54,566 bases of DNA from a virus. Positions 7,801-49,590 of the stretch are shown here, piece by piece. Each line of letters starts with the position of its first letter. The first letter of the stretch is position 1. The stretch is taken from IMG/VR virus record IMGVR_UViG_3300021368_000438, positions 1 to 54,566 of that record; one strand, given 5' to 3'. The position numbers were made by a program, and so were the translations under genes. The notes below the pieces were generated by a model. It did not search any database. It was given only the letters and a program-made list of their open reading frames with translations, and had not been told where the DNA came from.

Positions 7801-10800
7801 GTCGTATCGCCAGATACAATCTCTTTCTTGAGAGCGCCCCAGAACTTAACACGATCTTCTGGTGTTAAAATGTTTTCGTATGACCATTCTGCTATGCTGC
7901 TTAGTAAATCAGCGTGAGCTGCCTTACCTTGCTCTGCCTTTGGAACAGATATTTCGTTGGTTGCTGGATTGTATTTAAATGCAGCTCCTTCACCGCCAAC
8001 CATGATGGGCGCACGAGATGGATCACCGCCTAAGTTCTCGATAAGCTTTGCGGCTGCCGCACCTTCTTCTGGCGCAACCTTGTTGAGTATTGTTTCGATT
8101 TCGGAGGCTGCACTAATTCTGTCTGTAGTGTTTTTGACGTAGCCACTAGGGATAGAATCCCTCAGTATTAAGTGCATCTGTTCAAGGTCACTGATGAGAA
8201 CAGCCATGTCGTTCTCTGTAGTGGGTAGTGGTGAGCTTTCTGTCTTGTTTATGAACGAGATTACTTGAGCAACGGTAAGGCTCTTACGCTCGCTTGTAGG
8301 CTTGCTAGAACGCCTGTCTAATGCCATTGTCTGAGGTTCTGACAGCTTGCCTATGTCTAGCTCTAGCTTGGATATGCCGTTCTCAGATGCTGGGAAGCCC
8401 AGACCTGTAGCATTGCCACTCATAAAGACACCACCTAGACCTTGGTCTTCGCTAAACTTTGTGAATGTTTCAGAGTTATCCCACGCCCTTTGAAGAGCTT
8501 CTTTTGTTTCACTTAAAGGTCGTTGAAAAGTCTGGATATAATGGACATCAAAGTTCTCTATGCCTTCAGCGCCAGCAAGCTGCTCTACTGTGTAGTTGTT
8601 TCTGGCTTGAGCAGGCGACATTACCCGAATGATGCGCTCGGTTGTAAGGTCTTTTTGTGCTTTTTGTCTGATGATCGGAACACGACTGCCAAATCGAGGG
8701 TCTATGAGGGCAGACGTTGGAACGTTTGGAACGTCGTCTCTCATTTGAGCAGAAGCGTCGAAGCCTTCGCTTAAAGTTTCGTTTACTTTTGTAGGCTTGC
8801 TTTCAACCTTAGTTACTTTGTCTTTAATTAATGGTGTTTTGTCTGTCTTAATAACAACGTCGCCACGTTTCACCATAATGGTTTCATGGCTGTCGTATAT
8901 ACGATTGGTTATACCGTCTGCATAAACTGTTGTGCCAGCTTGCACAGATTTTACGCCACTTAATGTATTAACCTGTGTTGATCTGTTAGCAATAAATGGG
9001 ACAATAGTGGGTAGAAAGTCATCTTCGGTCATTGGCAACTGCTTGCTGTCTTTTATAGTGCCAACAACTTTTGTACCTTTTGCGTTCCGTCTAGCGTTTG
9101 ATTGTGCTTGAGTGAGGGCAGCCACCTCATCCATCATTCTTTCGCTCATAAAGAAATCTTCGCCACTTTCGAGAAGTGATTTATGTTCGGTACGATCTAA
9201 GTCTGCTTTATTTAAACGAGCACCTTTGCGTAGCATTGCCATAATACGCCCGTTATTGTTGCGACCAGCGCCCTCGAACTGAGCAGCTCGTTCTATTTGT
9301 GCGCCTGTGCCAAGACGTTTTGTCTGGGACGCATACGCTTGTGGGTCAAGCCGCATTTTAGATGTGGCTTGTCTGATGTTTACGCGGCGTCCGTCAATTT
9401 TAATTGTAGGTATATCTTCTGGCCTTGCTTCTGCCATGATTTTACCCATTTTTATTTCTCTCAAAGTAGCCAGACGGATTGCATCTTCTTTTGTAAACTC
9501 GTTGGGTTCTGTTACATCGCTATCTGCGAGAAGTTTTTTTGCATAATCAATAATTTCTGGGCTTTCAGCTTTTACTCTAGAGTCTCCTGATAAAAGTCTT
9601 TTTGCATAATTACGAAGTTCTGCATTCTGAGCGTCAGTTGTATTAACTTCTAGAATTTTCTTAGCGTAATCACGAATGTTTGCTTTTTGAACATCTGTTG
9701 GATTGAACGCAGCTATAATGTCGTCTTCAATTTGGCGCATTCTTGCTTGATCAGCCAAGTCCTCGTTGATGCTATCGTTGAGCGCATCGTATCTTCGGAG
9801 GACGTCGTCTGTATCAAACTCAATGTCTGCTGTGTCTAGTTTTTCTTCTAGCAATCCGCGCACTTCTGCTTGGTCTACATCTTCACCGATTTCGGTAACG
9901 TATCGACCAATCAAATCTTCCATACGAGAAGCGTCTGGGTTTACTTTTCCTTTGTTCGCTTTGACTGCTGCTTTTATTTCTTTTGTGCCAATAGTATTCT
10001 CAGGGCTTGGGGTTACGTCATCAAGCGTAATACCAGCATCCATCATTATTTTATGAGCTTTAGCAGATGCCTTGCTGTTTGCGTTTTTAAACTGAACAAA
10101 AGGCTTGTCTGGCGTAGCGTCTTCCAGCGTTTCAGAGAACCTTGCCATAATCGAGGGGTCTTTATTTGCGATTGCCTCGATTGTTTTTGCAAGTTCATTC
10201 ATTGCATTGTTAGCTGGAGCTTCGGTTGTTTTTTCTGGCGCTTTTCCACCAACAGCTTTTGCAAGCGCAGCTCCGTCTTTCTCAATCTGCTGATTAAGGT
10301 CATAAGCTTCTTTAGCTGCTTTGATTTGCGGTTTGCCTACGTTGCCTTTTTCGTTCGGTTCGACAAGCTCAAGGATTTCTTGTCCGTAGCCTTTTTCTTC
10401 GATCTCTTTTTTTGCAGCGTTTGTGTACTTAGAAGTATCAACTGCTGGCTTTGCTTCGGGTTCGGGCGCTGGTTCGTCTACTTTAACTGCTGGCGTTTCG
10501 TCTGGCGCATCTACCTTTGTTGTCTCAGGCTGTGCCTTTGATACCGCCTTTTCAGCTTCGGCTGCTTGCTTTGCTTTTCCAAACTTAATGATTGCTTGGT
10601 TTTGGTTAAACTTTTTGCCAGTAGTTGGATCGGGAATAGTGCTTTTTATTTTACCATTAGCGTCTGTTTCCAGCTTTAGCTCACCGCTATCGATCCATCC
10701 CTGTACATTGTCTGCTGTGTAATCTGTTTTTTCCAAACCTTTATTGATGCTCGCCTTCTGAGCGTCGGAAAGTTTAACAGGTTTAGTTGGTTCAGATGCT

Positions 10801-18534: not shown

Positions 18535-20112
18535 CTACGATCCGAGGATGTTATAACTAAATACAACCTCTAAATTTGCGCCCGAACTGTTGTTTGTAAC
18601 GATAAAGCCAATGTCACGAGCGACTGAGGTACAGTCGATTTCTAAATACTGAGCGTTGTTTAGAATGTTTGTCGTGCCAGAAGCTGATGCGTTGTAAGTA
18701 TTACTGTTGGCTATCGCTGTCGTTCCAGACATCGGTTGAATTGTACATGTTCCACCTGTGGTTGCCGCGTAAACGCCCGTGATTTGTATCTTTTGACCAA
18801 AGACTTTCTTTATCACAAAGTTTGCATTCGATGGGCTGGAAACTTTTAGATACATACAGTCTGATGAAAGAACAGTCGGTAGCTGTGTCGATGGTAGTTT
18901 GCCAGAGCTATCAAGAGTTGCGACACCGTTTGCCGCACCTTTCTGGGTTAGGGATATTTTTGTACTTAGATCAAGATCGCCGTATTCTAACGACGTCCCT
19001 GTAGAGTTAACTCGTACATACTGACTTGCGTTAGATGTTGTGAATGTTGGTAATGTGCTTTCTGTAGACGTTCGTATCCATTGAGTGCCGTCATAAAATT
19101 TAAGGACGTCTACCGCTGCTGACGTGTCGTGCCAAAGATCACCTGTTGATGGGCTGCTTGGAGACGACCCTGAGACAGTTAAATTTGCTTTGCCAGACAA
19201 GCCTGCTGCCAGACCAGACACTTTTGCCTGGGCAATAGCGTTGTCTGCAATGCCGATCTTAGCAAAGTTTATCAAACCAGTCGTTGCAGTAACATACTCA
19301 GATTCAAGCATAAGCCCCGTAACGGCTGTTGTCGCAGTGTTCTCAACCAATATGATAGTTATTAGGTTGCCAGACGGTACGGCTGAGTTAAAATTTACGC
19401 TGTTACTTGCAGGGTTTGTTGTGTAGTCAAATGAACCACCGTCGCGCTGAAGTATTCCGTTCTTGTAAACTTGTAAAACGCTTTCATCCGTATGAACAAA
19501 AGGAAAAGCAGCCTGACTTGAAGTGGTAAGGGTGTCAGTTCTGGTAAAACCAGTAATAGCGTTTGATCTTACTTTGTATATTGATACTGTTGTGTTCGCA
19601 TTCACATAAGGTGTGGTGTTAAATGTAACCGCGCCAACCCCACCTGTGCCTGCGGTTGGGCTAGAAACGTAATCGTTAGAACCGCCTGCTCTTTTGAGCA
19701 CACCGTCAACATAAACGACAAGCTCATCAGTAGACTCGTGAGCGTAATCAAATACAGTTTGACCAGAGGTTACAGTGTAGTCTGTCCGAGCATGGAAAAT
19801 AGGTGCGCCGATTGTACCAGCCGTTACGCCAGAAGCTCCGCGAATGTCTGCGTTTGAAGCTATTGTAATCCAGCCAGAGGTTGTGTCGCCGTATGTTCCA
19901 ACCCGATACTGCAACCCAGCATCGCTGTCTCTACGAAATTCTACTGGCCCAATCCAGTTTCCAGCCGTGTCAAAAATAGTGGCAAGTAATTCGCCAACTG
20001 TCTTTTCTCCCAACTCTGCGGAGTTTAAATAACGGACAACACTTTCAAATTCGGTGTTAATGTTTCCGCTACTACCATAGTTTTGGGGGTATTGTTGCCG
20101 TAACCTTGCCAT
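18535..20112 (-). CDS. short tail fibre / appendage protein (525 aa)
   Basis: A 525-aa Ser/Thr/Gly-rich beta protein. The first 100 residues (YLNSAELGEKTVGELLATIF) resemble the start of the 1237-aa fibre at 29536-33249, which suggests both use one docking site on the tail. Two related modules follow, each with VVYVDGVLKR or LQVYKNGILQR plus a GG(S)xxDY motif, typical of phage fibre repeats. The middle contains DLWHDTSAAVDVLKFYDGTQW, a common fibre motif. The C-terminal 110 residues form a distinct beta domain that could bind a receptor. It overlaps nothing; the next gene starts 10 bases on. Confidence 0.75.
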   Translation of the reverse strand: MARLRQQYPQNYGSSGNINTEFESVVRYLNSAELGEKTVGELLATIFDTAGNWIGPVEFRRDSDAGLQYRVGTYGDTTSGWITIASNADIRGASGVTAGTIGAPIFHARTDYTVTSGQTVFDYAHESTDELVVYVDGVLKRAGGSNDYVSSPTAGTGGVGAVTFNTTPYVNANTTVSIYKVRSNAITGFTRTDTLTTSSQAAFPFVHTDESVLQVYKNGILQRDGGSFDYTTNPASNSVNFNSAVPSGNLITIILVENTATTAVTGLMLESEYVTATTGLINFAKIGIADNAIAQAKVSGLAAGLSGKANLTVSGSSPSSPSTGDLWHDTSAAVDVLKFYDGTQWIRTSTESTLPTFTTSNASQYVRVNSTGTSLEYGDLDLSTKISLTQKGAANGVATLDSSGKLPSTQLPTVLSSDCMYLKVSSPSNANFVIKKVFGQKIQITGVYAATTGGTCTIQPMSGTTAIANSNTYNASASGTTNILNNAQYLEIDCTSVARDIGFIVTNNSSGANLEVVFSYNILGS

Positions 20113-26795: not shown

Positions 26796-27032
26796 CTATC
26801 GTCCTTCTATAAGACGATCTATTTTTGCGTCTAATGCGTCCAGACGATCCATGAGCCTAGACATGTCGTGATTGACTTCTGCCTTTGTAACGTACTCTTT
26901 TGCCATTTCCTCACGGGTACGGTTCAATAATATCTGCAAACGCTTTTGCTCCTCAATATAGCTACGCACTGTCCAGACAAGTAGACCAAGAGCGGCGGTT
27001 AAAACGCTGCTCCATATGATCTCCACTTGCAT
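26796..27032 (-). CDS. small membrane-anchored coiled-coil protein (78 aa)
   Basis: A 78-aa protein with an N-terminal transmembrane helix (IIWSSVLTAALGLLVWTV, about 4-21), then a basic turn and a long amphipathic helix ending in heptads (DMSRLMDRLDALDAKIDRLI). It overlaps the preceding gene by one base. Small proteins of this design recur between tail-fibre genes and head genes in marine phages, and sometimes beside lysis genes. A spanin- or holin-associated role is possible but not shown. Confidence 0.6.
   Translation of the reverse strand: MQVEIIWSSVLTAALGLLVWTVRSYIEEQKRLQILLNRTREEMAKEYVTKAEVNHDMSRLMDRLDALDAKIDRLIEGR
26798..26806 (-). promoter_or_regulatory. AAGGACGAT element upstream of the 39-aa gene
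   Basis: Minus-strand variant (AGAAGGACGATAG) at the stop of the 78-aa gene, about 50 bases before the strong ribosome binding site of the 39-aa gene. The last base of the core differs (T for C). Fits the late-element series. Confidence 0.4.
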
Positions 27033-27532
27033 TAGCTTGGCTTTGTCGGCCAGTCGTCATCTTCTAGATACGGCCAGTTAGAGTGCGTTGGTAAATCTCT
27101 CAGGGCGGTGCGGTAAGCTGTTTGCTCGGAGGTCATAGTTCTGTCTGACACAGCCCACCAGTCTGTTTCCTTTAAGCGTTCGCTTCGCTCTCTACGCATT
27201 TTGTCTGACCATGCAGCGTCTGTTTCTGCTTGGTAAGCTGCCTCTTGTTCTTCTTTAGTGCCTAACTCGTCATCATCGGCAAACATATCTACTAAATGCC
27301 ACGCTTCAAGCCACTGCCCATTACTGTCTTGTACTGCACCATTTCTTTCAGCCCTTTTAAATCTAGGAATATCTGATGGCGGTGGAGGCGGTTGATTTAA
27401 AATTGGGTCTACATTTAAATCATCGTAAACAAATTCACCCCAAACCTTTGGAAACGACTTGCCAGCATTTGCCGCTAGTAACTGGCTTTTCGTTTTTATT
27501 TCGCCTGTTGTTCTATCTCTATATCGATCCAT
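27032..27532 (-). CDS. phage tail assembly chaperone-like protein
   Basis: A 166-aa protein. The C-terminal half has the chaperone pattern: RRERSERLKETDWWAVSDRT, then TSEQTAYRTALRDLPTHSNW and a final DDWPTKPS. This matches the (R)xxxLxxTDWxxxxD...YRxxLRDxP...WPxxP signature of the phage tail assembly chaperone family. Its N-terminal half has a Pro run (NQPPPPPSD). It follows the fibre and tail genes, as fibre chaperones do. AAGGAG precedes the ATG. It is expected to help fold or trimerise one of the fibres and be absent from the mature virion. Confidence 0.75.
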   Translation of the reverse strand: MDRYRDRTTGEIKTKSQLLAANAGKSFPKVWGEFVYDDLNVDPILNQPPPPPSDIPRFKRAERNGAVQDSNGQWLEAWHLVDMFADDDELGTKEEQEAAYQAETDAAWSDKMRRERSERLKETDWWAVSDRTMTSEQTAYRTALRDLPTHSNWPYLEDDDWPTKPS

Positions 27533-27552: not shown

Positions 27553-28662
27553 TTAACTTGAGATTGCATAATAAATATATGTTTTCCCAGAGACTGATAA
27601 TTTGTTATCGTAATTATTCACGGTAAACCCACTACTGTAAGGGTCTATATAATCATAAACATCGGCAGAACCTGTGGAGTCTAAACGAAATCCTGTCGTA
27701 TTTCCTGAGACAATTCCTGTCCCCCCACCAAATGTCCAATAACTACTATTATTATCTAGCTCTTTAATTAAGACGAATTTTGCAGCGTTTGAGAAACCGC
27801 AATCTACGTTTACGCTGCTATTGTTTCCTGTATATCGGCCCATCTTGGTAATGCCACTTACTTCTCCAAACAAATACGCTACATACTCTCGTCCAGAAAA
27901 ACCTGTCTCTCCAGACCCCCCAACTGAAAAATGTGTTGCAGTTGGCGCTGTGTCATTCCATGAAACATCTCTATCGTAAGGGCCATAATCGGTGTCCAGA
28001 AAAAGCACGTAGTCTTCTGGGGCTGTTAAGTCCATGCTTTTGTGATAGATAGAAGGGTTCGATGAATGTGTTGTGCTTTTCACGAGCATCATGGCAGGGG
28101 CTGACCCTAGATTATGCGGAATTTGTTGAGCAGAACCTGTGCCGCTATAGGTCACAATATCGAAGGCATGTCTCCACCTTTTCCACATAAAAGTAGCGTA
28201 AGGATTTCCGAGAGTATTTGATAAGCCATCATGGTTATCCCAACGAATTGTAGGTGATCCATCTACTAAACCGCCTGTCCCATCGATGTTAAACCTTCTT
28301 CTACCAAATAGCCTTGTATATAATCTTGTATTAGAACCACTTGTTGATTTGGTAATAAACATATCTGGCGCAAACCCTGCGGTTACAGTTTGCGTGTAAT
28401 AGTTTGTATAAGTGTCATTATCTACTTCGAAGAATTGGTCTGAAGATGTAAGCGTTGACTCGCCACCTGATCTAATTGCTATGTAGTTAAAAGTGCTGCC
28501 ATTTACGTTCCAATGTATTGTGCTACTACCAGAACCAACTACCTTAAAACCTCTACCTGTAGGCACAACATATTGGTGTTCAATTGATGTCCCTGCATTA
28601 AATGCCAAGTCGCGTGTCTTTGTTGTGGGGCAATCATGGAAACCTATAGCATCGGCAATCAT
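27553..28662 (-). CDS. C-terminal part of amber-interrupted tail protein (369 aa if started at inner ATG)
   Basis: This frame continues the 270-aa gene upstream without a shift; only one TAG (28714-28716) separates them. Immediately after the TAG the frame reads HPSFLLVKNQNSTSN, the usual continuation of the upstream motif. The ATG at 28662 lies inside this conserved stretch and has no Shine-Dalgarno, so it is unlikely to be a native start. The part carries repeated modules: IPHNLGSAPAMMLVKSTTHS, REYVAYLFGEVSGITKMGRY and a Gly/Ser/Thr-rich end. They resemble the phage tail tip or fibre family with repeating (H)xLGxxPxxxLVK units. Either a readthrough extension, or the detached remnant of a broken gene. 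Confidence 0.65.
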   Translation of the reverse strand: MIADAIGFHDCPTTKTRDLAFNAGTSIEHQYVVPTGRGFKVVGSGSSTIHWNVNGSTFNYIAIRSGGESTLTSSDQFFEVDNDTYTNYYTQTVTAGFAPDMFITKSTSGSNTRLYTRLFGRRRFNIDGTGGLVDGSPTIRWDNHDGLSNTLGNPYATFMWKRWRHAFDIVTYSGTGSAQQIPHNLGSAPAMMLVKSTTHSSNPSIYHKSMDLTAPEDYVLFLDTDYGPYDRDVSWNDTAPTATHFSVGGSGETGFSGREYVAYLFGEVSGITKMGRYTGNNSSVNVDCGFSNAAKFVLIKELDNNSSYWTFGGGTGIVSGNTTGFRLDSTGSADVYDYIDPYSSGFTVNNYDNKLSVSGKTYIYYAISS

Positions 28663-28713
28663 ATTAATGTTTGAAGTAGAGTTCTGATTTTTAACTAATA
28701 AAAATGATGGATG

Positions 28714-28716
28714 CTA
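28714..28716 (-). other. in-frame amber (TAG) inside a tail protein
   Basis: The codon between ...SDVEDDLG and HPSFLLVKN... is TAG in an otherwise open frame from 29526 to 27553 (657 codons with readthrough). Related modules have an aromatic or similar residue at this place, so one base change from TGG or a Tyr codon would explain it. Readthrough, nonsense mutation or sequencing error are all possible. Confidence 0.85.
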
Positions 28717-29526
28717 TCCGAGATCATCTTCTACATCAGACGTACTTCCAGTGTATGATCCACATGCAATTTTACCAGTGCCATCATTATCTAAGCCATT
28801 TGGGTCATTTGCAAAACACCATATAATATAATCTTTATTAGTACCGTTAACATAAGCATGATCGTTTAGCGTAACGTGCGTGTCATTAACGCTAATCATG
28901 TTTGTCATTGTAATTGGGGCTTGGACATTTGGGTTTGTCTGCATTCTGTAGACTGTATTGGCTGCAAGGTCTTTATGCCAAAACATAGCATTCATACCTT
29001 CTATATCATTTTTGATAAAAATAGCACCTACTTCACAGCCTAAACCATGTGCAATTTTTCTTCCAGTTGTTCCATCCCCTGCATAAACTTGTTCTGAATA
29101 AAATCGACCAGACGTTCTAAGCACAACATCTAAATATCTATTATATGTACTGTTTTGCTGCCAAGCTGAAGTATAGCTATGCCCATTAGTTCCAAAAGTC
29201 ATATAGTTGCCAGAGTAGTACTTGCTTCCGTAAGAACCTGTAAAATCAAAGCGTACTGTAGTGCCTGGTATACTGCTACTGCGAGGCCAAAAAGCTTCAT
29301 TTCTAAGCACATTGTAATCAGTTGACCCAAATGCCCAACCTTTTGCATATGCTCTAGAAAGTACTGCGCCTGTATTGTTAACGGTATCTATGCCTGTTGT
29401 GAAAGTCCTATTAGCGTATGTACCGTTTCTGACAAATTGAGTAAATGTTTGGTCGAGAGGAGCTATCTCATGGGCATCTTCTCCAGCCCCTGCCGCACCC
29501 ATTAACATTTTTTTTAAGTTAACCAT
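28714..29526 (-). CDS. tail protein N-terminal part, ends at amber (270 aa)
   Basis: A 270-aa product starting MVNLKKMLMGAAGAGED, followed by a Gly/Ser/Tyr-rich beta region (TGIDTVNNTGAVLSRAYAKG, then RYLDVVLRTSGRFYSEQVYA). Next comes a module with GRKIAHGLGCEVGAIFIKND and DYIIWCFANDPNGLDNDGTG. It stops at TAG in the middle of the conserved (I)ACGSYTGS...DLGxxPSFLLVK repeat. That is not a natural domain end, which argues that the original protein was about 657 aa. The gene lies between the long fibre and the fibre chaperone-like gene, so a receptor-binding or tail tip role is likely. Confidence 0.75.
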   Translation of the reverse strand: MVNLKKMLMGAAGAGEDAHEIAPLDQTFTQFVRNGTYANRTFTTGIDTVNNTGAVLSRAYAKGWAFGSTDYNVLRNEAFWPRSSSIPGTTVRFDFTGSYGSKYYSGNYMTFGTNGHSYTSAWQQNSTYNRYLDVVLRTSGRFYSEQVYAGDGTTGRKIAHGLGCEVGAIFIKNDIEGMNAMFWHKDLAANTVYRMQTNPNVQAPITMTNMISVNDTHVTLNDHAYVNGTNKDYIIWCFANDPNGLDNDGTGKIACGSYTGSTSDVEDDLG

Positions 29527-29535
29527 ACTCTATTC

Positions 29536-32500
29536 CTATGCGGCTGCGTCTACTGCAAGTGCGCCATACCAAGTCGTGCCACCGTCTCTAGTTTGGAAAA
29601 CGTAGATGTCTGTCTCGCCACTTGCAGGAGCGTCTGGGGCAGTTCCCCCTGCAAACTTCACTGTTTGATTGGTTGTAAAATCTACTGTGCCACCGTTTCC
29701 AGTTAGTTCGAGGATAAAACCTACTAAATAGCCTGATATTGCACCACTAAATGTAAAAGTCGTATTGCCTGTCATAGTTAGGCTGAACATACCGCCAGAA
29801 GTTACATTACATGTTGGCGTTGTTCCTGATAAGGCATCATAATCTTCGTTTAAAGCACTATTTGTTAAAAACACACCTGATGTGCCAATACTCATTTCTT
29901 GACCACCACCAGCAACAAACACCATACCATTATTGTTAAACTGAAAGTATGTATCGGTATCACCTTCGTGATACATTCTGTTTGCCATATAAATATTATC
30001 GGCTGTAACGTTACCGTCTACATCCAGATTGCCGTACATGTTAACAGCGCCATTACCAGCCACTTTAAACCGTGGATAGTAGGCACTGTTATAATAGATG
30101 GATACGCCAAACAAGGTTTCGCTGCTGCTAGTGTCGCTATCCCCTAAAACAAGATACTGAGTCATAGTACCTTGTAGGTTTTTCATTACGCTTGCATTAT
30201 CGTGCTGATACGTGAAGCCACGCCCATCTGCATAATCTTGCCCTAGTTCAAGATAGTTATCATTACTAATGTCACCTACTTGTAAGGCATGATCTTCTAC
30301 CGCTACATGCGTAAAAAAAGTGGTGTAATTACTATCAATTTGTGCTCTTTCCGCACCGCCAACAAACATTTCTATAGTACCGTTCGTTTTGTTGCCTTGG
30401 ATAGCTGGCCTGTTAGTACCACCGCCCCAACCAATATAAACATCATTAGCAAAATCTATTGTGCCATTAAAAGTTAAATTACCTGTGGCTGTATCGTCTG
30501 CATCACTTCGTAAATAACTAGAGCCTTGCACACCATCTAATGTATCAGCATCTAGGCCAGAGCCAGAGCCATCTGTTAAACTTGTCCAAACAGTTTCGTA
30601 ATTGCTTGTAGACCCTTTGGCATACATCAAGTTATTGTTGCTTGTATCAACAAATACTTTGCCTTTTTCTCCAGAAGTATTGCTAAACTTTACACTAGGC
30701 CAAAATGAAGCATGATTGCGTATGACTTCTAACTGTTCACCCCACTCATCAGACTTAGCAATTATAGCAGGGTCAGTGCCAGTAGCTACAGTTATAGTTC
30801 CTGATGCACTGTCAGCAGCATCACTGCGGAGGAAGCTGCTTGCATGAAGGCTGTCTACTGTGTCTGCATTAATGTTTAACGCATCGATGTCTGATTTCGT
30901 CTGATCGGCTGTAGCGTTAGCTTCGATTGCATTTAGCTTCGTATGATCTGCATCTGTGAAGACATTGCTATCGGTTGCACTTTCTACTAACGCCCTGATT
31001 TCAGCCGCTGTTTGGTCGGCAGTAGCTCCACTTTCAATTCCATTGAGCTTCGTATGGTCTGCGTCTGTAAATACGTTACTGTCGGTTGCGCTTTCTACGA
31101 GAGTTCTTATTTCTGCGGCTGTCTGATCGGCGGTAGCGTTAGCTTCAATACCGTCTAGCTTTGCACCGTCTACCGAAAGGTCTCGACCATCGACCGTCTG
31201 TGTGCCTGAGAATGTAAGGTTGCCTGTTAGCTGACCGCCCGTAAGGGCGAGGAAGCCAGACCCTGCCGTTACGCCACCCTCCCAAGCAGAACCAGTCCAG
31301 ACTTTTAGGATGTTGCTGGTTGTGTTGTAGAATAAGTCGCCTTCGTCATTGTTGCTTGTAGGGTCGCTTGAGCCAATGCGGTACTTGTCTGCAAAGTCGT
31401 TAACAGAATTTATATTTGTTGCTACTGTGTTTACGTTGGCTATTGAACCGCTAACAGTATTAACGTTTGTGATAGAACCGCCAACGTTGTTTACATTTGA
31501 TATTGACCCAGCAACCACACTTAAATTGTTGCTCGATGCAGTAATGGTGTTACCCATCGCGTTGCCGTGAGCTGTACAGTAATATCTTAACGAAGACGGC
31601 GCATCAGACGGCACTGCAAATGTCACGGTAGCGCCAGACGACCCTGCTGTACCGCTAGACGTTACGCCTGATGTGTACGCATTGCCTGATCCATCTTTAA
31701 ACGCCAACGGATGGCCGCTGTTTGAGCTGTCGGATAAGTCGAACACATAAGTATTTCCGCGCACTAACGCCAGCGTTGGGTTGTTCACACCGTCGATGAC
31801 AAATACGTTTTGACCACTAACGTTTGCCACGGTGATAGTGTACGTTGTGCTACCTGTTAAAACACTAGCTAATGAGTTAATGTTACTGATATTCGTCGCA
31901 TTTGTGTTGACGTTACTAATGTCTGTAGCGACTGTTGATATTTTAGATGACCCACTGCTTAAATCAGTACCCACTGTATTTACGTTGGCAATTGATCCGC
32001 TGACAGTGTTTAGAGCTGACACGTTGGCTGTTGTCGCCATTGTGTTAAGGTCTGAAACAAAGTCTGATGTGGCGAGCTGGTTCAAATCAGCAACGATGTC
32101 ATTGGTCGCCAAAAGGTTTATGTCAGCTACAATATCAGTTGTAGCAAGCGTGTTAAGATCACTGACGATGTCTGTCGTTGCCAAGGTGTTTAAGTCTGCA
32201 ACGATGTCTGAAGTTGCTAATAGGTTTATGTCGTTAATGACGTCTGTGACTGCAACCTGATTAAGGTCGCTTACAAAGTCAGACGTAATAAGACTTGCTT
32301 TACCAGCAACTGCTGTAATGTCAGACGAGATGCCAGCCAAGGTATTCATGTTGGTGACGTTGGTTGATGTGCCTAAGACATTCATATCGTTTACGACGTC
32401 TGCCGTTCCGAGTGTGTTCATGTCTGATATAACGTCTGCCACTGCAAGAGTGTTCATATCTGCAATGACGTCTGTCGTTGCGAGGAGTGCCATGTCTGCC

Positions 32501-33249
32501 AATACATCGGTTGCAGCCAGAGCTGTGACAGATGAGCTTACGCCTGCGACTGTCGATACGTTTGATGAAATGCCTGATACAGTCTGGATATGACTAATGT
32601 TGCCCGAAACGGCTGTTACGTCGGGATGTGTTGCCCAGTATTTTGCAGAATAGTTTGTGCCGTCTACCGTGCCGCCTGTCTTGGTTGCCCACTCTTTGGC
32701 TGCGCCACCTGTTGATGAATTGGTTACGCCTGTGCCTCCGATTGCCCACGCTTTGGAAGAGTAGTCAGTTGAGGAAACTATTCCGTCTGTTTTGATCGCC
32801 CAGTCTTTTGCTTCTGATACGTCTACTATCTTGTCTGTGTTTGAAGATGCGATGACCGCCGCTTCGTCTGCGAATGTTGTGCCGCTTGTCAGGCCGTGGA
32901 CAATGTAAACGTCCTTGTTTGTCAGAGTAAGGAGGTCGAAGTTGTTGTAGGTCGTTGAAGAGTTAAATGCGCCAGTGATTTTGAAGAATGTTGTAACGTC
33001 TGTCCAGCTTGTATTGGAGTTAGCAAATTGACCGACGCGCACTTGGATTTTGTCTGTGGTCGTGTCAAATCTAAACTGGAAGTTGTCTGAGCGGAAGACG
33101 CCAGTGCTTGTGTCAAACATGTCGTCTAGCAAGTCGCTAAGTTGACGGTTGCCTATCTCTGCCGCCTCTAGGTAAGTGTCGAGTACGTGCTCTCCAGTCT
33201 TTGCGGATACAAAGCGGAGCTGTTCGCCTGTTGGTGCTGTAATTGCCAT
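29536..33249 (-). CDS. long tail fibre with cupredoxin-like domain (1237 aa)
   Basis: A 1237-aa fibre. Residues 1-110 form a docking module shared in outline with the 525-aa fibre (LDTYLEAAEIGNRQLSDLLD). Residues about 215-455 are a long array of degenerate 13-15-aa repeats (ATTDIVSDLNTLATTDIVAD), predicted trimeric shaft. About 465-570 is a cupredoxin-like domain with possible copper ligands His513 (SGHPLAF), Cys558 and the following His and Met in YYCTAHGNAMG. Around 675-780 are ATADQTAAEIR-type repeats. Later beta modules lead to a C-terminal tip (GNTTFTFSGAISGYLVGFIL). It follows the 91-aa coiled-coil gene and ends 9 bases before the amber-split gene. Confidence 0.85.
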   Translation of the reverse strand: MAITAPTGEQLRFVSAKTGEHVLDTYLEAAEIGNRQLSDLLDDMFDTSTGVFRSDNFQFRFDTTTDKIQVRVGQFANSNTSWTDVTTFFKITGAFNSSTTYNNFDLLTLTNKDVYIVHGLTSGTTFADEAAVIASSNTDKIVDVSEAKDWAIKTDGIVSSTDYSSKAWAIGGTGVTNSSTGGAAKEWATKTGGTVDGTNYSAKYWATHPDVTAVSGNISHIQTVSGISSNVSTVAGVSSSVTALAATDVLADMALLATTDVIADMNTLAVADVISDMNTLGTADVVNDMNVLGTSTNVTNMNTLAGISSDITAVAGKASLITSDFVSDLNQVAVTDVINDINLLATSDIVADLNTLATTDIVSDLNTLATTDIVADINLLATNDIVADLNQLATSDFVSDLNTMATTANVSALNTVSGSIANVNTVGTDLSSGSSKISTVATDISNVNTNATNISNINSLASVLTGSTTYTITVANVSGQNVFVIDGVNNPTLALVRGNTYVFDLSDSSNSGHPLAFKDGSGNAYTSGVTSSGTAGSSGATVTFAVPSDAPSSLRYYCTAHGNAMGNTITASSNNLSVVAGSISNVNNVGGSITNVNTVSGSIANVNTVATNINSVNDFADKYRIGSSDPTSNNDEGDLFYNTTSNILKVWTGSAWEGGVTAGSGFLALTGGQLTGNLTFSGTQTVDGRDLSVDGAKLDGIEANATADQTAAEIRTLVESATDSNVFTDADHTKLNGIESGATADQTAAEIRALVESATDSNVFTDADHTKLNAIEANATADQTKSDIDALNINADTVDSLHASSFLRSDAADSASGTITVATGTDPAIIAKSDEWGEQLEVIRNHASFWPSVKFSNTSGEKGKVFVDTSNNNLMYAKGSTSNYETVWTSLTDGSGSGLDADTLDGVQGSSYLRSDADDTATGNLTFNGTIDFANDVYIGWGGGTNRPAIQGNKTNGTIEMFVGGAERAQIDSNYTTFFTHVAVEDHALQVGDISNDNYLELGQDYADGRGFTYQHDNASVMKNLQGTMTQYLVLGDSDTSSSETLFGVSIYYNSAYYPRFKVAGNGAVNMYGNLDVDGNVTADNIYMANRMYHEGDTDTYFQFNNNGMVFVAGGGQEMSIGTSGVFLTNSALNEDYDALSGTTPTCNVTSGGMFSLTMTGNTTFTFSGAISGYLVGFILELTGNGGTVDFTTNQTVKFAGGTAPDAPASGETDIYVFQTRDGGTTWYGALAVDAAA

Positions 33250-41079: not shown

Positions 41080-43032
41080 ATGGATGTTGATAAACTACGA
41101 CTAGCACTAACCGAAGACACCTCAAGCGCAATGCGTAAGGCACTGCGTCCACTTGCTCAAGATGTCCTTGAGAGATGTCTTCATACAGACCAGATCGAGT
41201 TGGCGTTCAATGCCTCACCAATCGTTGGCGATGGCTCAGATCAGTTGAAGGTTTCACCTACGCACTCTGGTCTTGTGATGTCGCTCGACATGACGTCGCT
41301 TGCACACATTGCAAGCTCGTATGAGTATAGTAGAGAGAAAGCAGAATCCGTTTGCGATCACATGCTCGACGCTATCCGTAAGCCACAGAGGCACGGATAC
41401 ACAACAGCTTCGTCCAAGAGCAAGACAGGGTTTATATTCGGTCGCTATCGCGATTGGAACGATGACGTTCTTCCTCTGCTACAAAAAGCAGCCAGAGAAA
41501 AGACGGGCATCTTCTCTTCCGATGCCAAGCTACCGAAGTGGCCTGCGGAAACCGCCAACGAGAACTTGTGCATCCTGTGGATGATCGAAGAAGCAGTTGG
41601 CAAATTGCCAGTGAGCTACGGCCTTTTCAAGCATGCGATTACTTCCATGCACTCGATGAATGAGACGCAAAGTAACGTCTTTGAGGCAGCCTTCATCATC
41701 TTCGAAGACGAGAGCGTCGAGAATAACTGGCGTGAGATCATAGAGAATCTCCCTATTGAGCGCAGACAAAAGCTGAGAGATGTTCGTGATCGTATGGTGG
41801 ATCACTACAGTGACGCCGATGAAGAGCTGCCCACGGCAAAGCCTTCGGATGGTAGCATTGTCTTGCCAGAGGACACGACGATTGTTGACGCTGTGCTCTC
41901 GACCCAAGGCTTACCATCAATCAAGCGGATGGTTGATGCCATTAACACCGCCACAGCCAAGGTGACAAAGCTTGAGAGTGAGTTGGACATGACACGCAGA
42001 ATGGCGAGTCAGGCAGCCACAGCCGTGTCTACCGTTGCTACGACCGAGGCGACTGGCGACATACCCGAAGGCTCTGTCGAGACGGTGAACGCCGCTGATC
42101 TGTTCGGTATCACAGGAGCAGCCAGAGATATGTTCAACTTCGATGTGCCGAAGTGGAAGTGGAACGGTGTTCATCCCCACGTACCGCAAGTCGATCCCGA
42201 TTACATCTTTCGAGCAGAAGAACTGTTGCGTGTCTTGTTCGCCATCATGACGAACCAACGTGCGTACTTGTTCGGTCACTCTGGTACAGGCAAGACGACG
42301 CTCGTCGAGCAAGTCTGTGCGCTACTGCTGTGGCCGTGCATGAGGGTCAACTTCGACAGCGAGATTACTCGTATGGACTTGATCGGTCGTGACACACTGA
42401 ACGTGAAGGACGGTGCAAGCGTATCGACATTCATCGACGGCATCCTACCACAGGCAATGTCTGGGCCATATGTGTTGCTATGCGACGAGATGGACAGCGT
42501 CAGACCAGACGTCGCCTATGTGATGCAACGTGCTCTCGAAGGCAACGGCCTGTTGTTGACAGAGGATGGTGGTCGCCTTGTGAAACCGCATCCAATGTTC
42601 CGCATGTTTGCCACGGGTAACACCCAAGGCCAAGGTGATGAGCATGGTATGTACCCATCGTGTCGGCCTCAGTCTCTTGCGCTGCTCGACCGTTTCACTG
42701 TGTGGTCTGAAGTCGATTACCTTGATGCGAACCAACGCAGCAAGTTGGTCAAGAAGAAAGTCCCGACGCTCGACCCCGAACACCACAAGATGGTGTGCCA
42801 GTATGTGACCGAGCATCTGGCTGCGTTCAAGTCTGCCAAGATACTGCAACCGATGTCACCTCGTGGCATGATTGCACTGGCGCAAGCAGTCGCAATCTTC
42901 GCAAGCATTACGACAGGCAAGGAGACCGAGAAAGCAATCAAGCGTGGCTTCGGCACAGTGGTTCTTGATCGTGCCTCATCCTCAGACAAAGCGGTTATCT
43001 CAGGTATCGTAGATCGTGTGGTGGCATCATGA
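41080..43032 (+). CDS. cobS: CobS/MoxR-like AAA+ ATPase
   Basis: A 650-aa AAA+ protein. Walker A is GHSGTGKTT at 399-407; Walker B is LLCDEMD with Asp469/Glu470; sensor-like FATGNTQGQGD follows. The AAA+ part resembles CobS, the ATPase of aerobic cobaltochelatase (MoxR group), but the first 370 residues are an extra region not found in cellular CobS (about 330 aa). So it is probably a phage AAA+/VWA machine rather than a cobalamin enzyme. It overlaps the CobT-like gene by four bases (ATGA), as a matched pair. Its promoter has TTGACA and an operator. The partner is a VWA protein expected to be remodelled by this ring. Confidence 0.82.
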   Translation: MDVDKLRLALTEDTSSAMRKALRPLAQDVLERCLHTDQIELAFNASPIVGDGSDQLKVSPTHSGLVMSLDMTSLAHIASSYEYSREKAESVCDHMLDAIRKPQRHGYTTASSKSKTGFIFGRYRDWNDDVLPLLQKAAREKTGIFSSDAKLPKWPAETANENLCILWMIEEAVGKLPVSYGLFKHAITSMHSMNETQSNVFEAAFIIFEDESVENNWREIIENLPIERRQKLRDVRDRMVDHYSDADEELPTAKPSDGSIVLPEDTTIVDAVLSTQGLPSIKRMVDAINTATAKVTKLESELDMTRRMASQAATAVSTVATTEATGDIPEGSVETVNAADLFGITGAARDMFNFDVPKWKWNGVHPHVPQVDPDYIFRAEELLRVLFAIMTNQRAYLFGHSGTGKTTLVEQVCALLLWPCMRVNFDSEITRMDLIGRDTLNVKDGASVSTFIDGILPQAMSGPYVLLCDEMDSVRPDVAYVMQRALEGNGLLLTEDGGRLVKPHPMFRMFATGNTQGQGDEHGMYPSCRPQSLALLDRFTVWSEVDYLDANQRSKLVKKKVPTLDPEHHKMVCQYVTEHLAAFKSAKILQPMSPRGMIALAQAVAIFASITTGKETEKAIKRGFGTVVLDRASSSDKAVISGIVDRVVAS

Positions 43033-44948
43033 AGTCACAAACATTCGAACATGAGATGACGCAGACAAGTTCTGTGTTCGGTCGTAAGTCTAGCCTTAAC
43101 GTTGTGTTCAAGGGTGATGGTGCAGCAACGGATGGCGATAACGTTTATCTGCCGTCCATTGCACATGATCAGGAAGTGGACGCTGAGACACAGATGGTCA
43201 TGCGTGGCTACGTGGATCACGAAGCTGGTCACAACAGACACAGCGACATGCCGCTGATCTTGAAGAAGTATGAGCAGTGGCACGAAGAGAACAAGCCTGT
43301 ACTCAAGGGCTTGCACAATGCCATCGAAGACATGTGGCTGGAGAAACGGGTCATGCGTGAGTACGGTGGCTCGGAGAAGAACCTGTCTGCCGTTGCCAGT
43401 AAGTGTAACAACTCGTTCGTCGAGCAGAACAAAGACAATCCACTCACTCAGTCATGGGCAGCGGTCGGGCCGTTGGCTGTGACGTGGGAAGGTCGCCGCA
43501 ATTACGAGGGTATCGAGGGCGTTGACGAGTGTCTCGATCTCATACCAGACGACTTGCGTAAGCGTGTCGAAGAGTGGGTCTCTCGCATCGATGACTGCAA
43601 GAACACCGCAGACTGCATCGATCTGGCAACCGAAATCTACACCAATGAAATCGAGCCAACGATGAAGAAGTCGCCCAAGCCAGACAAGGAGGGCGACATC
43701 AGAAAACGTACAGTGCCAGGGGAGGACGGAGAAGAGACCCAAGACGAGAGCTTTGGTGAGGGTGATGATCCAGACACAACCGAGGGGCAGCCGACATCAG
43801 GCGACGAGGAGACTGATGAGGGCGACGGCGAAGGCACTACAGGTGGTGACACCGAGGGCGAGGAGCAAGAGGGCGAAGGTTCGTCTGAGGGCGGTACTCA
43901 GGAAGAGGTAGACGAGGTGACGCCTTGGACTACTGATCTCAAGGGTGGTCTCGATGAGGCGCTCAAGGCAGCAGGGCTGACCGAGCATGACGGCAAGAAG
44001 TACAGACCTTACACCACACAATACGACATGGTGCATCACCGCAAGTTGGATCAGAGCATACCAGCCAACAGGAAGCTGAACGAAGGCAGCACCTCTATCT
44101 ACAAGGCTGACCAACGGAAGCTTGGTGACACGGTGCTCGTGATGATGCGTAAGTTGTCTCGTGCATTCATGGCAAAGCAAGATCGATACTGGGAGGGCGG
44201 TCGTGAGTACGGTCGCTTGGACAGTCGCAGACTTGTCGCCGCTGTGAATGGTGCAGCCAATGTGTTCAAGACCAGAGACGAAGCGCAAGACATAGACACC
44301 GCAGTCATGATCATGGTGGACATGTCGGGCAGCATGGACAACGGTAGGATTATTGTTGCACGTCAGGTTGCGATTGCTCTTTGCAACTGCCTTGACCGCA
44401 CGACGATAGCCTACGAGTTGCTCGGCTTTAGTACGGACGAATACGCCATTAAGTATGAGGAGAAAAACGAGGCTTGTCATGGTAAGTTCAGCCGTATCTC
44501 TCCGCTGAGACATTACATCTTCAAGTCTTTCGAAGAACCGCTGCGTGATGCGACAGGTGCGATTGGCACAATGGCAAAGCACAGGATGCATCACAACGTG
44601 GATGGCGAGAGTGTGTTGTTTGGTCACGAGCGATTGAAGAAGCGGCCAGAGAGTAGACGCATCATGCTCGTGTTGTCTGACGGTTATCCAGAGTTTGATG
44701 GCAGTGGCGCTGAGCATCGTAAGTCTCACCTCGCTGACGTGGTTGCTCACGTACAGAAGGAAGGCACTGAGCTGATCGGCATCGGCATTCAGTCGAGTGC
44801 AGTCGAGCAATTCTATGATCGCTACACGGTGGTGAAAAATTTGAGTGATCTTTCGAAGGGTGCGCTTGACCAACTGGCGAGGCTGTTGATCGACGACAAG
44901 TTCGATGTAACGAGCGACAGCTTGATCAAGGCACGGAAACTTGGGTGA
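43029..44948 (+). CDS. cobT: CobT-like VWA protein with HExxH motif
   Basis: A 639-aa protein. The N-terminal domain has HEAGH at 64-68 (YVDHEAGHNRHSD), a zinc-peptidase-like motif also seen in CobT relatives. Residues about 210-305 are a highly acidic Glu/Gly/Thr linker. The C-terminal VWA domain has a MIDAS motif DMSGSMD at 431-437 and later VLSDGYPE. The gene is coupled to the AAA+ gene. In cells CobS and CobT load cobalt into hydrogenobyrinic acid; in phages such pairs are known but their role is unsettled. No other cobalamin gene is present here, so a protein-remodelling or peptidase role seems as likely. Confidence 0.82.
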   Translation: MKSQTFEHEMTQTSSVFGRKSSLNVVFKGDGAATDGDNVYLPSIAHDQEVDAETQMVMRGYVDHEAGHNRHSDMPLILKKYEQWHEENKPVLKGLHNAIEDMWLEKRVMREYGGSEKNLSAVASKCNNSFVEQNKDNPLTQSWAAVGPLAVTWEGRRNYEGIEGVDECLDLIPDDLRKRVEEWVSRIDDCKNTADCIDLATEIYTNEIEPTMKKSPKPDKEGDIRKRTVPGEDGEETQDESFGEGDDPDTTEGQPTSGDEETDEGDGEGTTGGDTEGEEQEGEGSSEGGTQEEVDEVTPWTTDLKGGLDEALKAAGLTEHDGKKYRPYTTQYDMVHHRKLDQSIPANRKLNEGSTSIYKADQRKLGDTVLVMMRKLSRAFMAKQDRYWEGGREYGRLDSRRLVAAVNGAANVFKTRDEAQDIDTAVMIMVDMSGSMDNGRIIVARQVAIALCNCLDRTTIAYELLGFSTDEYAIKYEEKNEACHGKFSRISPLRHYIFKSFEEPLRDATGAIGTMAKHRMHHNVDGESVLFGHERLKKRPESRRIMLVLSDGYPEFDGSGAEHRKSHLADVVAHVQKEGTELIGIGIQSSAVEQFYDRYTVVKNLSDLSKGALDQLARLLIDDKFDVTSDSLIKARKLG

Positions 44949-47893: not shown

Positions 47894-48311
47894 AGCGAAA
47901 CTTGACCATATTTTAATGCAACTTAATACACAGACGACAACACCGATGCCGAACAAAATAGCGTTAATTGAAGAAGCTCTTTCAAATGATGCTGGACACC
48001 TGTTCCAAAACTGGACGGTCAAACAGCATTGTGTTTTGCAAATGATACTGAGGGGCGCAAGCAATGAAGACATTGCCAAGCGGATGAAGGTCACGGTGAA
48101 CACAGCCAAGGTGCATGTGCGTACATTGTTTAGGAAGCTAGACGTGAACACACGCGCCGAGTGTGTGAGTAAGTGTTTGATTGCATTTCGGGAAGTGAGT
48201 GACGATCAGTATATGTTGATGACGAGAGGTCTGCCCAAGGATTGGGACGAAACATACTCTGAGCCTGACCCTCACGATTTATTAATTCACGGAGCAACTA
48301 ATGCCGCTTAA
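47868..48311 (+). CDS. LuxR/GerE-type HTH regulator
   Basis: A 147-aa regulator with a C-terminal-type HTH at about 49-105: WTVKQHCVLQMILRGASNED, then IAKRMKVTVNTAKVHVRTLF and RKLDVNTRAE. This is the classic LuxR/GerE pattern (ANEDIA.....V..HV..L..KL). There is no receiver or autoinducer domain; the N-terminus is a short coiled coil. The gene overlaps the integrase start by 11 bases. It may control integrase and the lysis-lysogeny choice. A good ribosome binding site (GGAGAAC) precedes the ATG. Confidence 0.85.
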   Translation: MTSQLDRIEAKLDHILMQLNTQTTTPMPNKIALIEEALSNDAGHLFQNWTVKQHCVLQMILRGASNEDIAKRMKVTVNTAKVHVRTLFRKLDVNTRAECVSKCLIAFREVSDDQYMLMTRGLPKDWDETYSEPDPHDLLIHGATNAA

Positions 48312-49590
48312 ACTAAAACTACGGAATGGTGTGTGGCAAGCCGTTGGGACTGTTGTCTGTAAGGACGGTCGCAAGGTGTTTGTGCGTAAGAGCACAGGCC
48401 ACACGTTCCACGAGAAGACGTGGGCAACTAAGAAGTTGTCTGACATTCTCTTGGAGACCGTGCAAAGTGAAGCAAAACGGGAAGATACCACCACCAAGGT
48501 GGTGTCTGACTGCATCCGTCTGTTCTTGAAAAGGCCAGATGGTGTGGGGAAGACTGATGAGATGACGCTTGATCGGTTTGAACGTGTGTTCGGACGTAAG
48601 GAATTGAGCAAGTTGACCAGTCTTGAGGTGAATGATTACCTGACAGGAAAGGGAAACAAAGCCAGTAGTGTGCGTCGGGAGATGTCAACAATCTCTGCGT
48701 GTTTCGGATACGCACGACGCATGGGGATGGATGTGCCAGACATTACGTTGGTCAAGCCAAGTGAAGGAGACGGACGATGTCGATGGTTGGATGTAGATCA
48801 GCGTGACCAGTTGATCGATGCCATGCCAGACGTGAACAGTCGTGACGTGCTGAAGTTCTTGTTCTTTACTGGGGCGAGGTTGGGGGAGTGCTTTAACTTG
48901 AGACGAGAAGATGTCTTGAGTGGTGAGGTGTTGCTGCGAACTCGCAAAGGTAAGGCCAAGAAGTTGAGGACAAGGCGTGTGCCGCTTCATGCTGAGATCA
49001 AAGCGATGGTTGAGGCGAGGGCGGTAGCTACGAACAATTTCGTCTTCAAGTACAACAAGCGTAATACGCGCAGAGGTTCGTCTTCCTACAGTTTGGAGCG
49101 TTGGGAGCGTGATGGTTTCTATGACTACTTCAACGTTGCCAAGGACAAGATTGGGCTAGACGATTTTGTTCCGCATGATTGTCGGCACACGTTTGCCTCG
49201 CATTTGGTGCAAGCTGGCGCAAGCTTGAAGGCGGTGGCTGAGTTGTTGGGACATACAAGTCTGGCGATGGTCATGCGTTACGCGCATCTTGCGCCTTCAC
49301 ACTTGGATGACACCGTAAGTTTGTTGGGTGTCAAAGAGGTGTCTGATTGCACAAATACTACACACGAAGAAGGGGTGGTGCTGCCTGAGAGAATTGAACT
49401 CTCGGCCTCTTCCTTACCAAGGAAGCGCTCTACCACTGAGCTAAGGCAGCTTAATCAAACAATAATTTCAGACGGCATTGATTCTCCGAATGCTAATATA
49501 GACGTAAGCAACGCCGTTGACAGTGAAAAATGCGATGCCCTTACCAAGGGTAAAAGCACACACCCAAAGAGCTATAAGCCAGATAAGTAG
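48301..49590 (+). CDS. int: tyrosine integrase, C-terminus encoded through tRNA-Thr
   Basis: A 429-aa tyrosine recombinase for site-specific integration. The catalytic set is Arg193 (GARLGECFNL), a Lys near 217-221, His292/Arg295 (PHDCRHTFASHL), His318 (LGHTSL) and the nucleophile Tyr327 (MRYAHL). The N-terminal arm- and core-binding domains are intact. The last residues are unusual: 359-384 (VVLPERIELSASSLPRKRST) are read antisense through a complete tRNA-Thr, followed by about 45 residues of no clear fold. Such ends arise when attP lies inside the int 3' end. It shares an operon with the LuxR-type gene. Confidence 0.95.
   Translation: MPLKLKLRNGVWQAVGTVVCKDGRKVFVRKSTGHTFHEKTWATKKLSDILLETVQSEAKREDTTTKVVSDCIRLFLKRPDGVGKTDEMTLDRFERVFGRKELSKLTSLEVNDYLTGKGNKASSVRREMSTISACFGYARRMGMDVPDITLVKPSEGDGRCRWLDVDQRDQLIDAMPDVNSRDVLKFLFFTGARLGECFNLRREDVLSGEVLLRTRKGKAKKLRTRRVPLHAEIKAMVEARAVATNNFVFKYNKRNTRRGSSSYSLERWERDGFYDYFNVAKDKIGLDDFVPHDCRHTFASHLVQAGASLKAVAELLGHTSLAMVMRYAHLAPSHLDDTVSLLGVKEVSDCTNTTHEEGVVLPERIELSASSLPRKRSTTELRQLNQTIISDGIDSPNANIDVSNAVDSEKCDALTKGKSTHPKSYKPDK
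49376..49450 (-). tRNA. tRNA-Thr(GGT), overlaps integrase 3' end, probable attP core
   Basis: A 75-base cloverleaf on the minus strand. The acceptor stem GCTGCCT pairs with AGGCAGC. The D arm is GCTC-AGTGGTA-GAGC, the anticodon arm is CTTCC-TTGGTAA-GGAAG with anticodon GGT (Thr), the variable region is AGGCC and the T arm is GAGAG-TTCAATT-CTCTC, followed by ACCA with encoded CCA. All stems are perfect, so it may be functional. It lies antisense inside the integrase reading frame, so the phage probably integrates into the host tRNA-Thr gene and carries a full copy of it. Confidence 0.93.

Follow-up and report, generated by a model that had tools for sequence, protein, structure and literature searches.

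A putative tail-tip gene of the DUF7483 family interrupted by a single amber codon in a marine phage genome

We find that one tail gene of an uncultivated marine phage, contained in a single linear IMG/VR virus record of 54,566 bp (the window, by which we mean the whole of that stretch), is divided by one in-frame amber codon. This codon very probably reflects either a recent nonsense mutation in a putative tail-tip gene of the DUF7483 family or an erroneous base in the metagenomic consensus, and between a true allele and a consensus error we would split the chances roughly evenly.

The frame runs on the minus strand from 29526 to 27553 and, just as an earlier note on this DNA had described it, is open for 657 codons save for a single TAG at 28714-28716. 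The upstream ORF (28714-29526) encodes 270 aa and is terminated by this TAG; past it the frame stays open for 386 codons up to a TAA at 27553-27555, with neither a second stop nor a frame shift among them, and the read-through product has 657 residues (270, the stop and 386). The peptides on the two sides meet in the junction DLG*HPSFLLVKN, which is the motif (DLG-x-HPSFLLVKN) by which the earlier note had joined them. The start at 29526 is preceded by an SD-like AGGA (CATAGGAATAGAGT-ATG). The first ATG downstream of the stop, at 28662, had been said to be without a ribosome binding site, and indeed the search for an SD match there found none; the later TTG, GTG and ATG starts past 28662 have SD matches of at most 3 nt, none of them convincing. 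The features of this part of the window are as follows.

29536..33249, minus strand: long tail fibre of 1237 aa, directly upstream of the split gene
28717..29526, minus strand: N-terminal part (270 aa) of the putative DUF7483-type tail-tip protein, which would end within the second beta-sandwich
28714..28716, minus strand: in-frame TAG, residue 271 of the read-through frame; F, Y, W or M in relatives
27553..28713, minus strand: C-terminal part of the split gene, 386 codons and TAA, with matches to PF24299 (DUF7483), phrog_19943 and phrog_24898 and without an initiation signal of its own
27032..27532, minus strand: tail-fibre assembly chaperone of 166 aa (PF16778), directly downstream of the split gene

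A stop separates two open stretches, each 70 codons or longer, at 25 sites in the window, and the TAG at 28714-28716 is the one found among them whose halves form a single protein in homologs, which argues that such a pair of long open pieces in a common frame is more than chance here. Elsewhere on the coding strand, the long stop-divided pairs have the appearance of adjacent genes in a common frame. At the TAG at 18535, for example, the gene after the stop has its own SD, and the gene before it ends where its homolog in Roseobacter phage CRP-810 ends.

The C-terminal piece matches Pfam DUF7483 (PF24299) with 117.4 bits (cut-off 27) over residues 162-384 of that piece, and it also matches the two PHROG tail or virion families phrog_19943 and phrog_24898. 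The C-terminal match expected of a DUF7483 protein, above the curated score, is thus present, and the one continuous gene expected of it is broken by the TAG; judged by these matches, the split gene is a broken member of the family. An AlphaFold model built from 15 sequences (mean pLDDT 73.6, pTM 0.78) consists almost entirely of beta strands arranged in repeated domains, and the repeats are visible in the alignment too. The model places residue 271 within the second beta-sandwich domain, with strand 265-268 before it and strand 273-280 after it, and not at a domain boundary. The predicted fold matches the DUF7483 protein A0A6J5QL19 (BFVD) over its whole length with a TM of 0.78, and a Foldseek search of the PDB with the same fold gave no convincing match. 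From the family names, the position between fibre and chaperone and the variability of the cassette we assign the product as a tail-tip protein, which probably contacts the receptor.

Full-length relatives are single intact ORFs, and this bears out the claim that one tail gene has been divided by a single amber codon. Uninterrupted full-length ORFs are present in the Roseobacter phages CRP-1, CRP-4, CRP-9, CRP-13 and CRP-603, in MW202710 and in locus L002, and in a whole-length alignment of eight sequences all seven relatives have one ORF with F or Y opposite the TAG. Across the 87 loci whose match spans this column the facing residue is F in 58, Y in 17, W in 10 and M in 2, nearly always an aromatic side chain, and the matched stretches contain no stop at all. 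The nearest relative (locus L093:4998-6995) is an intact gene of 665 aa that is 52% identical and has Trp (TGG) opposite the TAG; a second sample (L175) holds a gene identical to it over 1998 nt, again with TGG at this position. From TGG to TAG is one G-to-A step, two changes would be required from the more frequent Phe codons and a single transversion from a Tyr codon, and the simplest history would be one transition in a Trp codon, with the ancestral Trp taken from one near relative. No relative closer than 52% identity to the split protein was found. Peptide patterns of each half, run against viral contigs, gave no hit for the N-terminal half and one distant relative for the C-terminal half, a search with the exact DNA flanking the site, any codon being allowed in place of the TAG, had no match, and prokaryote genomes contained no relatives of the split gene.

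Synonymous sites are saturated in the comparison with L093, and segment identities were therefore used in place of dN/dS. Identity is 62% before the stop, 58% over the next 185 residues and 40% over the last 200 residues, the last figure being of a size common in variable tips. As the sequence after the TAG is kept nearly as well as that before it, with no second lesion, the nonsense change should be recent (or not real). A recent mutation or error was among the readings offered in the earlier note, and with intact relatives, a sense codon at the column and an undamaged remainder it is the best one.

We suggest that a single tip gene of the DUF7483 family recently mutated at one codon to a stop, the simplest route being G to A in a codon for Trp. 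If the TAG is taken at face value, translation would halt 270 residues in, partway through the second beta-sandwich domain, and the other 386 residues, which include the conserved DUF7483 end, would stay unmade for lack of a start signal. Since residue 271 is placed between two strands of the second domain, the 270-residue product should not fold properly; it would be non-functional and virions would be left without a working tip, a loss of function in a protein whose biochemical role we infer. A defective allele of this kind could exist in the sampled population, as relatives of the phage can sit as prophages. There is nothing new in kind here, and a lone nonsense allele or an error of the consensus in a variable tail gene has little importance by itself. 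We point out, as a caution, that automatic annotation would break up into two hypothetical proteins what is a single DUF7483 tail protein in relatives.

Judged on core-gene homology and synteny, the window is a temperate marine phage of the CRP-810 type. Amino acid identity to CRP-810 is 85% for the portal, 84% for the capsid, 78% for the terminase and 68% for the primase-polymerase, the order of these genes is equal, and in both genomes the integrase adjoins a tRNA-Thr gene. CRP-810 defines a marine phage family in which most members have an integrase, and itself integrates at tRNA-Thr (PMC11288001). The integrase ORF of the window (48301-49590, plus strand) continues for about 71 codons past the point where its match to the CRP-810 integrase ceases, and it runs across the whole tRNA-Thr(GGT) gene (49376-49450, minus strand) on the opposite strand. 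The CRP-810 integrase stops just short of the tRNA, and the integrase of the window may lack the stop that it once had. A search of genome contigs with the 3'-terminal 46 nt of the phage tRNA-Thr gave no exact match.

At CRP-810-type loci (L013-L092, downstream of the portal) the genes lying between the fibre and the chaperone vary strongly, even among close phages. The order of fibre C-terminus, tip and chaperone is common to the window and L093, and apart from the fibre C-terminus and the chaperone the other genes in the fetched stretch of L093 have no match in the window. The tip cassette thus looks as if it is exchanged between phages, and a nearest relative in an otherwise non-matching phage is in line with this.

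Programmed or leaky readthrough of the amber codon, by a near-cognate tRNA or a suppressor tRNA of the host, would give a host-contacting protein in two forms, one short and one full-length. The 386 codons past the stop are fully intact and conserved, and such an absence of downstream damage would fit a codon that is read through; moreover, the C that follows the stop places it among the weaker bacterial termination contexts. The stop is, however, not conserved, as a sense codon occupies this column in each of the 87 relatives that span it, and the short form would, on the predicted fold, end inside a beta-sandwich. ARAGORN and Rfam searches of the window for a suppressor tRNA-CUA returned only the tRNA-Thr(GGT). 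The downstream RNA folds no better than shuffles (z of +1.1 to +1.3 downstream, -0.7 for the segment across the codon), and no stable structure around 28714-28716 stands out against them. The literature searched for amber readthrough in phage tail fibres held nothing relevant. Suppression giving two forms, as the earlier note had proposed, is unsupported by these results, and we regard readthrough as very unlikely. That the amber is a host-dependent switch, with a full tail tip and infection by that route only in hosts that suppress or misread UAG, strikes us as more improbable still; suppression, if true, would amount to a simple host-range switch, and nothing here points that way.

The gene could instead encode two proteins, the C-terminal part being made from the ATG at 28662 or by reinitiation and acting together with the N-terminal part. 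This in-frame ATG lies 51 nt past the stop, which is near enough for reinitiation, but it lacks an SD and the later starts offer little more. Strand 273-280 of the second sandwich is, according to the model, encoded between the stop and 28662, so that a product from 28662 would miss one strand of that domain, and the seven full-length relatives as well as L093 have one continuous gene. We give this arrangement a very small chance, and seen against the predicted fold the gene does not give the impression of being designed to yield two forms or two pieces.

About 11 other genes in the window end normally in TAG, among them the terminase, the 1237-aa fibre, the integrase ORF, the primase and the 3296-aa gene that had been cited for the claim that the code is not reassigned genome-wide, a claim that holds; behind nearly all of these genes a further stop follows in frame after 0-32 codons. 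No internal stop interrupts the matches of about 33 CRP-810 proteins to the window. Although one in-frame TAG within an otherwise open gene is what a table 15-like code could produce, this use of TAG as an ordinary stop refutes genome-wide reassignment, and reading TAG as an amino acid in this phage has next to no probability.

A suppressor tRNA-CUA is present in about half of the phages with reassigned TAG. The table-15 phages (TAG = Gln; crAss-like and others) resemble the window in having an in-frame TAG in a structural gene, and differ from it in that the window has a single such codon rather than many genes with one, uses TAG as a stop elsewhere and contains no suppressor tRNA. Its coding density under table 11 is also normal, at about 90% (from a hand-picked gene list with the split gene counted as one), against about 67-69% in table-15 phages when table 11 is applied to them (PMC11210395).

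CRP-810-type phages (CRP-810 and uncultivated genomes related to it; PMC11288001) and the window are alike in their structural gene order and in their CobS/CobT-like genes, which in the window are two adjoining genes at 41080-44948 (plus strand) resembling the CobS and CobT subunits of cobaltochelatase, as in CRP-810. The tail-tip cassette of CRP-810 differs, with a frame of 565 codons that has no match to the split protein. In the CRP-810 record (OR671924.1, L003:9100-10797) gp55 has a deposited start at 9934, but its frame can be followed back without a stop to an ATG at 9100 (565 codons), and the unannotated gap of about 840 bases before gp55 is probably coding. Known counterparts of the split gene are DUF7483 tail or virion structural proteins of phages, for example CRP-1 gp41, CRP-4 gp52, CRP-13 gp45 and CRP-603 gp52 of Roseobacter phages, which align with it over the full length at about 30% identity. 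The genes of several DUF7483 relatives likewise precede a tail-assembly chaperone-like gene, and these relatives are uninterrupted, whereas the gene of the window has one amber codon at residue 271.
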